Shown one piece after another: positions 11,425 to 13,538 of a stretch of DNA of 52,839 nucleotides (positions are counted from its first letter, which is position 1; each line of letters opens with the position of its first letter). The stretch is taken from assembly GCF_003852715.1 (NCBI RefSeq), contig NZ_RIAV01000020.1, forward strand, positions 1-52,839. The letters are read 5' to 3'. Below the pieces are notes generated by a model. That model ran no database searches, had not been told where the DNA came from, and worked only from the letters and a program-made list of their open reading frames with translations. The stretch comes from Ectobacillus antri. Its GTDB lineage: Bacteria > Bacillota > Bacilli > Bacillales > Bacillaceae_G. The translations under genes were made by a program, and so were the position numbers.

Positions 11425-12789
11425 CTAAGCCGTTTTTCGTGGATTTGATTTGTCGCCCTGTTGATGTTTGCTTTTAATAAAAGCACATATGATTAGCACT
11501 CCCAATGTTGTAAAACAAACAACAGTTCCAATCGAAACCCCATTACTGAACGTGGAGCCAAGAAAAATGATCACCAGTCCAACAATGCCGATAATCGTTG
11601 TGGCCGGAAATAATCGCATTTTGAAAGCTGGGATATTTGTGTAAGTCGGACGCAGCTTCAATTGCGCCGCACAAATGCTCAACCAAAGCAACAGCATAGT
11701 GAATCCAGGAATTGTCATCATGGTTCCGATAATGCTCTCTGGAGCAAAGTATGCTAGTCCCGCACCGATTAATAATAACATACCATTCACACCTATAGCT
11801 GCGATTGGCGTACCTGTTCCGCTTACTTTCTTGAACAGTATAGGCGCTTCTCCTTTTTCAGCCAAGGCGAACATCGTTCTTGAAGTCGCGAAAATCCCTG
11901 AGTTGGCAGCCGAAAGCACCGCCGTCAGTAAAATGAAATTCATGATATGAGCGACGCCGGGAATACCAATCGCATCCATTACTTGTATGAACGGGCTTTC
12001 ATTCCCCGCAACTTGATTCCATGGTATTAATCCAGCGATGATCGTGATCGGTAGAATGTAAAACAAAATAACACGTACAACTACTCCTTTAATTACTTTT
12101 GGCAGCACTTTTTCAACATCTTTCGTCTCGGATATTGCTACCCCGATCAGCTCAGATCCCCCAAACGAAAACATTACAATGAAACAAGCGCTGAACACAC
12201 CATGTAGACCATTCGGGAAAAAGCCGCCATGTCCAAGCAAATGTTCAGTAGGTGTCGCTGGCGCGAAGCTTGTGAAGCCCAGTAATACAGCCCCGCCCAA
12301 AAAAATGAACAATACAAGCGCGATAATCTTGATGCTCGCAAACCAAAATTCCATCTCTCCGTAGAATTTCACTTGGAAACTATTGATTCCTATAATTAAA
12401 AGAGCACAAAGGGCACTTAATAACCAAAGTGGAACAGCGGGAAACCAAAATTGTAAAAAGGATCCAGCAGCCAATATTTCCACAATCGTGACAAGCGTCC
12501 AGTTCACCCAGTATAACCAGCCGACAACAAACGACACACGAAATCCGAACGCTTTGTGAACCAGATGCTGTACATTATGCTGCGGGTACACGACAGCCAT
12601 CTCCGCTAAAGCCACCATAACGATCATCAATAAGACCCCGCCCAACAAGTATGAGATGATGACACCAGGACCGGCCACCGCCAGCGTATCTCCGCTTCCT
12701 TTGAAAATACCGGTACCGATCATGCCGGCCAATGCCAAGAATTGAACGTGTCTAGGCAATAGTTCTTTCTTCAATCCATTTTGATTCAT
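11425..12789 (-). CDS. APC-family amino-acid permease, YvbW-like
   Basis: A 454-residue transporter with about twelve membrane segments. The N-terminus GLKKELLPRHVQFLALAGMIGTGIF carries the GMIGTGIF motif of the amino-acid transporter (RocE/GabP/AroP-like) branch. ATG at 12789 overlaps the stop of a 26-codon ORF (ATGA) and has GAGGAAA upstream. Two tandem T-box leaders precede it, so expression should rise when a specific tRNA is uncharged. My reading of the specifier loop is UAC, suggesting tyrosine uptake; UUA (leucine) is the alternative frame. Substrate is inferred from the leaders, not from the transporter sequence. Confidence 0.82.
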   Translation of the reverse strand: MNQNGLKKELLPRHVQFLALAGMIGTGIFKGSGDTLAVAGPGVIISYLLGGVLLMIVMVALAEMAVVYPQHNVQHLVHKAFGFRVSFVVGWLYWVNWTLVTIVEILAAGSFLQFWFPAVPLWLLSALCALLIIGINSFQVKFYGEMEFWFASIKIIALVLFIFLGGAVLLGFTSFAPATPTEHLLGHGGFFPNGLHGVFSACFIVMFSFGGSELIGVAISETKDVEKVLPKVIKGVVVRVILFYILPITIIAGLIPWNQVAGNESPFIQVMDAIGIPGVAHIMNFILLTAVLSAANSGIFATSRTMFALAEKGEAPILFKKVSGTGTPIAAIGVNGMLLLIGAGLAYFAPESIIGTMMTIPGFTMLLLWLSICAAQLKLRPTYTNIPAFKMRLFPATTIIGIVGLVIIFLGSTFSNGVSIGTVVCFTTLGVLIICAFIKSKHQQGDKSNPRKTA

Positions 12790-12866
12790 TCTAGTTTCCT
12801 CTTTTCATTTCTAGTTTTTTTCATAAGATCTGTAAATATATTTCTATAATAATAGCCATCTTCCAT
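12786..12866 (-). CDS. 26-residue ORF with three consecutive Tyr codons, coupled to the permease
   Basis: ATG at 12866 is preceded by AAAGGAGG and TGA overlaps the permease ATG by 4 bp. The product starts MEDGYYYRNIFTDLMKK and ends KRKLE. The three adjacent Tyr codons (all TAT) at positions 5-7 recall amino-acid-rich leader peptides. Because it lies downstream of both T-box terminators and its translation ends at the permease start, it could couple permease translation to Tyr supply. This is inference; no hairpin that would hide the permease start was obvious. It could also simply be a small coupled protein. Confidence 0.5.
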   Translation of the reverse strand: MEDGYYYRNIFTDLMKKTRNEKRKLE

Positions 12867-12951
12867 GACCATCCCTCCTTTCATGCCACCTAAGCATCGC
12901 TGTGTACCTAATGAAGTGAGTCAAACATTAAGCATCAATATGAACGAAAAT

Positions 12952-13192
12952 AAAAAGTCCCCACTGATGTTAATCAGTAGGGACGAATTTATACGCGGTA
13001 CCACCCTAATTATCGACACAATTAGTATGTCGATCACTTCATTGGTCATAACGGCTCTTCACCGTCTTCCCCTTGCCTAAGCTTGAAGAAGAAGCTCCTG
13101 GATTGTAATTCATGCAGTTCTATGTACTGACTTGCACCATCCGTCAGCTCTCTGTAACAGTGAGAACATACACTACTGTATTCCATTCATTG
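12952..13192 (-). promoter_or_regulatory. T-box leader, gene-proximal copy (probably tRNA-Tyr)
   Basis: Minus strand AGGGTGGTACCGCG is the T-box antiterminator sequence, and GTCCCTACTGAT/ATCAGTGGGGAC followed by TTTTTA is the terminator. Stem I contains AGAGAGCTGACGGATGG and the specifier-loop signature AGTA...GAA. After GAA the bases are T-TAC-A. By the GAA-N-codon-purine layout seen in glyQS, the specifier is UAC (Tyr). The variable T-box base (U) predicts a discriminator A, which fits tRNA-Tyr. The copy is about 98% identical to the one upstream. Confidence 0.85.
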
Positions 13193-13224
13193 CCTATCAT
13201 CAATATAGTTTCATTGAAAAACAC

Positions 13225-13465
13225 AAAAAGTCCCTACTGATGTTAATCAGTAGGGACGAATTTATACGCGGTACCACCCTAATTATCGACACAATTAGTA
13301 TGTCGATCACTTCATTGGTCATAACGGCTCTTCACCGTCTTCCCCTTGCCTAGGCTTGAAGAAGAAGCTCCTGGATCGTAATTCATGCGGTTCTATGTAC
13401 TGACTTGCACCATCCGTCAGCTCTCTGTAACAGTGAGAACGTACACTACTGTATTCCATTCATTG
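13225..13465 (-). promoter_or_regulatory. T-box leader, promoter-proximal copy (probably tRNA-Tyr)
   Basis: A second complete T-box displaced by exactly 273 bp from the first, with its own T-box sequence, antiterminator and terminator (stem from GTCCC at about 13231). I count five differences over about 240 bp, all transitions. The specifier region reads GAA-T-TAC-G. With two copies in series, both must be switched on by uncharged tRNA before the permease is reached, which should give a tighter or steeper response. Confidence 0.85.
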
Positions 13466-13499
13466 CTTATATTAATGCTTATATTAATGCTTATATTAA
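13464..13499 (-). repeat. Three tandem copies of a 12-bp unit at the leader 5' end
   Basis: TGCTTATATTAA is repeated three times without interruption, from just inside the predicted transcript start to the first T-box. It may be a slippage product. Confidence 0.9.
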
Positions 13500-13509
13500 T
13501 TATTTACCA

Positions 13510-13538
13510 ATATTAAAGTAGACACATATAAAAGTCAA
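13510..13538 (-). promoter_or_regulatory. SigA-type promoter of the tandem T-box transcript
   Basis: Minus strand TTGACT (13538-13533), a 17-bp spacer and TAATAT (13515-13510), directly upstream of the first T-box. Confidence 0.65.

Follow-up and report, generated by a model that had tools for sequence, protein, structure and literature searches.

Enteric bacteria sense charged tRNA in their trp and his attenuators through a leader peptide in which cognate codons form a run. The leader of rtpA (yczA), the anti-TRAP gene of Bacillus subtilis, reportedly has 10 residues with three Trp codons, and ribosome occlusion at this gene was reportedly described by Chen and Yanofsky in 2003 and 2004. To our knowledge, the sensing of one tRNA at two levels, by a T-box and by a stalling leader, has been worked out only for anti-TRAP. 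As stated in PMC11255114, anti-TRAP of B. subtilis is regulated by a T-box together with tRNA-dependent ribosome stalling that acts on translation. Here we analyze a stretch of 52,839 nucleotides from Ectobacillus antri (contig NZ_RIAV01000020.1, positions 1 to 52,839; the window), in which two near-identical T-boxes and a leader open reading frame (ORF) with three consecutive Tyr codons precede a permease gene. We believe, with a probability of roughly three in four, that this feature is a Tyr version of the rtpA leader-peptide module, in which stalling would control the translation of the permease.

Arrays of T-boxes are known as well. Tandem and triple T-boxes have been described, the tandem ones being enriched in Bacillota (PMC12452182); how tandem T-boxes act is called unknown in a review (PMC7583486). 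Passages of these two papers report two or three complete T-boxes in a row, as found here, including triples, and a pseudo-cooperative response is proposed there. The genes named in those passages are trp, ilv-leu, several ABC transporters, thr genes and thrS; Tyr permeases and a leader placed after the array are not among what they mention.

Two T-boxes and a leader ORF before a permease gene

On the minus strand of the window the order of features is candidate promoter, T-box 1, terminator, T-box 2, terminator, leader ORF and permease (Table 1). Both T-boxes exceed the curated RF00230 threshold of 93 bits, and by sequence and pattern both contain the T-box sequence GGGUGGUACCGCG of the antiterminator and a competing terminator. 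They repeat with a period of 273 nt. From their common start to the terminator the two copies differ at five positions, all of them transitions, and over the Rfam span a MAFFT alignment gives seven differences (96.9% identity). The register of the specifier loops, GAA-U-UAC-G and GAA-U-UAC-A, was taken from the Rfam covariance alignment. In the same genome, the T-box of tyrS (TIGR00234, 463 bits) has the specifier context GAA-U-UAC-A and that of a prephenate dehydrogenase gene has GAA-G-UAC-A; a paralogous permease gene has two T-boxes with the specifier UUC (Phe) and no leader. Because UAC stands in the same register before tyrS and the prephenate dehydrogenase gene, the specifier is best read as Tyr. 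A UUA (Leu) specifier was rejected, since it disagrees with the Rfam register and with the leaders of tyrS, the prephenate dehydrogenase gene and the Phe permease in this genome.

An earlier sequence-only reading of the window had described two complete T-boxes 273 bp apart that differ by about five transitions, and the RF00230 matches and our recount agree with it. It had called the specifier UAC for Tyr; the covariance alignment returns UAC and not UUA (Leu), with tyrS and the prephenate dehydrogenase gene as controls. It had also ascribed the likeness of the copies to recent duplication or gene conversion, which the T-box tree described below fits, with exceptions.

The leader ORF begins MEDGYYYRNIF…, and an alternative ATG at 12872 would make it two codons longer. 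Its TGA shares an ATGA with the permease ATG at 12789, so that the leader stops at +4 of the permease. If one mismatch at most is allowed, an 18-nt core of the leader occurs at this site alone in the 3.49 Mb genome; each of the next four sites shows 3 mismatches, and a reversed control gave four sites within three.

Table 1 Features of the permease locus in the window
Feature	Position	Strand	Basis or remark
Candidate sigma-A promoter TTGACT-17-TAATAT	13510..13538	-	9/12 consensus matches
T-box 1 (distal)	13249..13472	-	RF00230, 141.8 bits, E 1.1e-31; specifier UAC at 13380-13378
T-box 1 terminator, hairpin and T run	13230..13257	-	pattern scan
T-box 2 (proximal)	12976..13199	-	RF00230, 143.9 bits, E 3e-32; specifier UAC at 13107-13105
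T-box 2 terminator, hairpin and T run	12957..12984	-	pattern scan
Leader Shine-Dalgarno sequence AAAGGAGG	12874..12881	-	sequence; similar in relatives
Leader ORF MEDGYYYRNIFTDLMKKTRNEKRKLE, 26 aa	12786..12866	-	stop overlaps permease start
Three Tyr codons TAT TAT TAT, leader codons 5-7	12846..12854	-	sequence
Permease Shine-Dalgarno sequence AAAAGAGG	12798..12805	-	within leader ORF
Permease gene, APC family, 454 aa	11425..12789	-	PF00324, 317 bits

Leader conservation at orthologous permease loci

Genome samples contained one genome per species. A scan of this kind gave 11 related permease loci, eight of which, from Terribacillus-type genomes and Gottfriedia endophytica, reach at least 75% identity, and the leader is present in 8/8 of these. 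The other three loci have 35-60% identity, and the one at 60% (L036) has no T-box motif. In whole genomes of the Terribacillus family an orthologue was found in 10 of 159, all of one genus. In the family of the window three of 19 genomes match at E 1e-180, namely the window genome, a Gottfriedia genome (G378) with two copies and G002, whose permease has 63% identity. The species scan and the whole-genome sets overlap in species; the 13 orthologous loci counted below are those of the whole genomes (window 1, Terribacillus-type 10, Gottfriedia 2).

A leader with the start M/V-[DE]-[DS]-[DG]-Y-x-[Y/F] is found at all 13 loci, which rules out a chance mini-ORF. Nine of the ten Terribacillus leaders were found by pattern and the tenth (L140), on which the pattern fails at codon 6, by eye. 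The leader patterns required TAY or TGG at codon 5, and this cost no orthologous locus. Codon 5 is Tyr in 13/13, and a second Tyr stands at codon 6 or 7 in every leader: codon 6 is Tyr in nine, Phe in three and His in one, and codon 7 is Tyr in 12, the remaining one being Phe in a Gottfriedia copy with a Phe specifier. The Shine-Dalgarno (SD) sequence, the first four codons, the Tyr codons and a frame that reads into or past the permease start are kept across the loci. The number of T-boxes varies; among the ten Terribacillus loci it is three in four and two in four, and two loci at contig ends are uncountable.

The sequence-only reading had pointed to the 26-codon ORF, the ATGA overlap and Tyr codons 5-7, each of which we read at the same place. 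Its suggestion of two tRNA-level switches and perhaps a translational sensor for one amino acid gains support from the UAC specifiers and from the Tyr-codon leader kept at the orthologous loci. Its idea of a coupling between mini-ORF and permease through ATGA fares less well, as the overlap exists in the window but is absent from the other 12 loci. There the leader stops 38 nt into the permease in Terribacillus and in the Gottfriedia Phe copy and 53 nt into it in the Gottfriedia Tyr copy, and the frame in which it is read against the permease is not that of the window. Start/stop coupling is therefore unlikely as a shared mechanism, and the overlap was ruled out as the key feature. Translational coupling, in which the leader would feed ribosomes to the permease by termination and reinitiation at ATGA, so that its translation would raise permease synthesis and a shortage of Tyr would lower it, could draw on the overlap in the window and on the strong SD of the leader; it has against it the unconserved overlap, the difference in frame and a predicted sign that opposes the T-boxes, and we consider it unlikely.

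Behind its start the leader drifts. Its length ranges from 26 to 41 aa, and at codons 8-17 of nine of the ten Terribacillus leaders (L137 left out) there are 6 synonymous and 208 non-synonymous pairwise differences. A small functional protein such as a transporter partner, with the Tyr codons as part of the protein, would explain the N-terminus conserved at all 13 loci. However, this drift, the spread of lengths, the absence of a Pfam match for the leader peptide and the similar N-terminal tetrapeptide that precedes Trp codons ahead of unrelated genes make it the least probable of the explanations weighed here.

Gottfriedia has two adjacent permease genes. The Tyr copy has two UAC T-boxes and the leader MESDYYYL…, and the Phe copy has two UUC T-boxes and the leader MESDYYFF…. 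Specifier and leader codons appear to change together here, which supports codon sensing but does not prove it because this is one case with two base differences. The same pair bears on the possibility that the T-boxes alone regulate and that the mini-ORF is an inert inherited remnant of an anti-TRAP-like leader. Such a remnant would be in line with the two Tyr T-boxes without a leader of this kind in G002 and with the two leaderless T-boxes of the Phe permease paralogue in the window genome. Yet SD, start and Tyr codons are kept in three lineages while the rest drifts, and Phe codons beside Phe T-boxes would not be expected of it, so that we hold an inert remnant to be very unlikely.

At the G002 locus (L042, G002:C3:203260-207600) the two Tyr T-boxes are followed by AAAGGAGG and ACGGAAGATTCG, which resembles a leader start with ACG replacing ATG. 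This stretch is a possible leader remnant.

Leaders with Trp codons before rtpA and trpS

The comparison set for anti-TRAP consisted of 44 genomes of one Bacillus genus, 25 of which have the gene. A T-box motif and a leader precede it at 23 of the 25 loci, with Trp at codon 5 in 23/23, and the T-box was confirmed with Rfam in 4/4 tested. Leader starts at these loci include MDDGWWC, MYDGWWWHSR, MEEGWPEWP and MESDWRR, and the SD stretch is typically AAGGAGGTGRYGGCC. An order-wide search for anti-TRAP gave matches in 38 of 199 genomes at E 0.001, with only two loci over the cut-off; these were used, one having a T-box and a leader (L142) and the other neither (L143). The window genome gave no anti-TRAP match at E 0.001.

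Two trpS loci have leaders of the same type, MEDGWWW (L262) and MEDGWWR (L263), after Trp T-boxes of 134 and 136 bits; the trpS-type leader occurs in two of the 41 genomes of that family. The specifier context is Trp in 25/25, that is, at the 23 anti-TRAP loci and the two trpS loci. In both genomes (G224 for L262, G577 for L263) the leader crosses the trpS start, and the trpS frame of L262 is broken after about 100 codons.

The leader of the window closely matches these leaders, a likeness that the sequence-only reading had not raised. Of five leaders compared with it the nearest is that of trpS at L262: between AAGGAGG and the end of codon 4 one gap and two mismatches separate the two, and after codon 4 the window has TAT TAT TAT where L262 has TGG TGG TGG. 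It also shows the N-terminus of rtpA leaders, M-[DEY]-[DES]-[DG] followed by the regulatory codons. As in B. subtilis rtpA, a T-box for the same amino acid lies upstream, the SD and the first four codons are similar, the cognate codons run from position 5, and the leader ends near the downstream start or runs past it. The agreement of T-box and leader in their amino acid holds on both sides, with UAC specifiers and Tyr codons 5-7 here and Trp with Trp at the 25 loci.

The differences from rtpA are equally clear. The amino acid is Tyr (and Phe) and not Trp, the T-boxes number two or three and not one, and the gene encodes a permease and not a TRAP inhibitor. The leader here overlaps the gene start, whereas MYDGWWWHSR (read in L186) stops about 20 nt upstream. 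As the downstream gene encodes an APC permease and not anti-TRAP, the feature is a variant and not an rtpA leader. The leader itself is best read as one of the anti-TRAP kind with its codons exchanged, either by common descent or under a strong shared constraint.

Leaders read into or past the downstream start at 13/13 permease and 2/2 trpS loci, and the anti-TRAP leader stops, among those listed, lie from -24 to +47 relative to the gene start. At three anti-TRAP loci (L190, L194 and L198) the leader is in frame with the gene and has no stop; if read through, it would give an N-terminally extended protein. For reinitiation at ATGA, this spread of stops and these in-frame leaders are a further difficulty.

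Proposed mechanism and wider occurrence

The mechanism that we propose is stalling-controlled translation of the permease, modeled on anti-TRAP. Uncharged tRNA-Tyr would prevent termination at the two successive T-boxes and the transcript would reach the permease gene. The leader, M-E-D-G-Y-Y-Y..., would then be translated across the ribosome-binding site of the permease. With ample Tyr-tRNA, ribosome after ribosome would run to the end of the leader and cover the SD and start of the permease, giving low translation. When charged tRNA-Tyr is scarce, ribosomes would come to a halt on Tyr codons 5-7; the SD, about 40 nt further downstream, would be free and the permease could be made. The geometry suits this scheme: the permease SD lies inside the leader and 40 nt beyond its last Tyr codon, and therefore a stalled ribosome would leave it free and a finishing ribosome would cover it. 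By comparison with rtpA, then, translation of the leader, stalling within it and a positive effect on the permease may all be expected. Tyr is the probable cargo of the permease, the T-boxes pointing to a role in its uptake.

The enteric trp and his attenuators share the run of cognate codons with this locus but differ in what follows. By pattern scan there is no terminator between leader and permease (12866 to 12789), and therefore an effect on transcription like that of those attenuators is not expected of the leader. A hairpin sequestering the permease SD was considered and dropped, since none is conserved in the seven regions folded and the fold z-score around the SD in the window is -0.37. 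With neither a structure hiding the SD nor a terminator after the leader, there is no indication of structure-based translational control or of classical attenuation. A hairpin over the start of the leader itself may occur: in half of 30 distinct leaders (15) at least 2 of the 3 bases of the start codon are paired.

A stalled ribosome on the leader might act mainly by protecting the mRNA from nucleases or exposing it to them, and not by releasing the SD. Ribosome stalling near the 5' end does stabilize Bacillus mRNAs, but this would leave the reading of the leader into or past the permease start at 13/13 loci unexplained, and we regard it as highly improbable.

Several points weigh against stalling-controlled translation on the anti-TRAP model. 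As no SD-hiding hairpin is conserved, regulation would rest on occlusion alone. The ATGA of the window might allow reinitiation, and the sign of the effect would then be reversed. The triple Tyr is not strict, codon 6 being Phe (three) or His (one) in Terribacillus. The Gottfriedia switch has been seen once, lies in an A+T-rich stretch and leaves two Tyr codons in the Phe copy. Gottfriedia leader starts and those of the MESDW type match the window less well than the trpS start does. Two of the 25 anti-TRAP loci (L143 and L206) have neither T-box nor leader. Finally, G002, which belongs to the genus of the window, has no recognisable leader despite its 63%-identical permease and two Tyr T-boxes.

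Searches beyond the orthologues covered 397 genomes. Starts of the pattern [AG]TGGA-x4-GR-x-TAY-TWY-TAY were matched in 121 of them, mostly by chance as judged from a reversed control. Thirty of these loci (L071-L100) were inspected, and two, both from Terribacillus, have an SD and, directly upstream, a T-box motif; at L079 such a motif lies 189 nt upstream, and there is no SD. A leader start without fixed codons was matched in at least 145 genomes, and 50 loci at 46 distinct sites were inspected. Three combine a T-box with a leader (two Terribacillus, one trpS), the motif at L222 looked like chance, and four anti-TRAP matches of this search were read among the anti-TRAP loci. The free-codon pattern fails on the SD variant of the window itself, and other variants may escape likewise. 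Distant homologues of the permease were found in 80 of the 397 genomes at E 1e-135, and 29 loci were viewed: four (L101-L104) are orthologues with the leader, three (L119, L126 and L129) were not anchored, and the remaining 22 showed no leader by eye, with a lone T-box-like motif at L124. A search of the literature by title and abstract opening returned no report of a leader peptide for Tyr or Phe behind a T-box.

Another short ORF stands behind a Trp T-box at L018/L154 (G000:C23:259514-259842), before a gene that by eye encodes a protein like sodium:neurotransmitter symporters. A strong extra SD and the two-codon ORF ATG-AAG-TGA lie ahead of the gene's own SD, and L155 (G003, 96%), the sole close relative, has the same ATG-AAG-TGA arrangement. 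It is possibly a decayed or minimal leader.

The origin of the repeated T-boxes was approached with a tree of a hand-picked set, 21 T-boxes that belong to nine permease genes. T-boxes of the same locus pair for the window (1 and 2), T. aidingensis (1 and 2), T. saccharophilus (2 and 3), strain 7505 (2 and 3), T. halophilus (1 and 2), G518 (1 and 2) and G002 (1 and 2). Ultrafast support for the same-locus groups is 88-100, with only some of them starred, and six of the 18 inner forks are open. As exceptions, the first copies of the two Gottfriedia genes group together, copy 3 of T. halophilus goes with G518, and strain 7505 and T. saccharophilus each have a first copy that is unplaced. Duplication or gene conversion, repeated within loci, would account for the near-identity of the T-boxes.

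Across the window genome there are 29 matches to T-boxes, of which 25 exceed the cut-off; they include four further close pairs (G000:C10:65602-66074, C8:62095-62772, C12:117828-118490 and C1:374354-374791), and the C1 pair does not reach the Rfam cut-off. The leaderless paralogous permease lies behind the C12 pair (Phe). In the roughly 190 nt viewed downstream of the other T-boxes of this genome, whose specifiers were read automatically for part of them, no further leader that repeats the specifier codon was noticed.

Upstream of T-box 1 and within the interval marked by the sequence-only reading (12786-13538), the promoter call is plausible because of its position and not its score, as three promoter-like sites were found against 4.3 expected from shuffles and such sites are not enriched. 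Between this promoter and T-box 1, at 13500-13464, a 12-nt unit (plus strand TGCTTATATTAA) is repeated exactly, about three times in all. Elsewhere in the window, on the minus strand at 49158-49051 and 49000-48899, are tandem TPP riboswitches, both over the Rfam threshold, with a GC-rich inverted repeat and then T's, seen by eye, between them.

By the comparisons above, the locus is best read as a Tyr form, with a Phe form in Gottfriedia, of the anti-TRAP T-box/leader-peptide module. We lean towards a broader proposal, in which the anti-TRAP leader would be one member of a portable sensor: a conserved initiation cassette, typically of AAGGAGGTGRYGGCC, AUG and GA-rich codons, placed after T-boxes, with its cognate codons swapped and changing together with the specifier. 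If true, the sensor would be found with Trp (anti-TRAP and trpS), Tyr (the permease) and Phe (the tandem copy), and would let each gene respond to one tRNA both in transcription and in translation. Adjacent copies in which specifier and leader codons differ together would be a natural experiment, and the proposal offers a testable rationale for transcripts with two or three T-boxes plus a leader. Matching Tyr, Phe and Trp leaders would make the pairing of T-box and leader peptide a general, re-targetable device.

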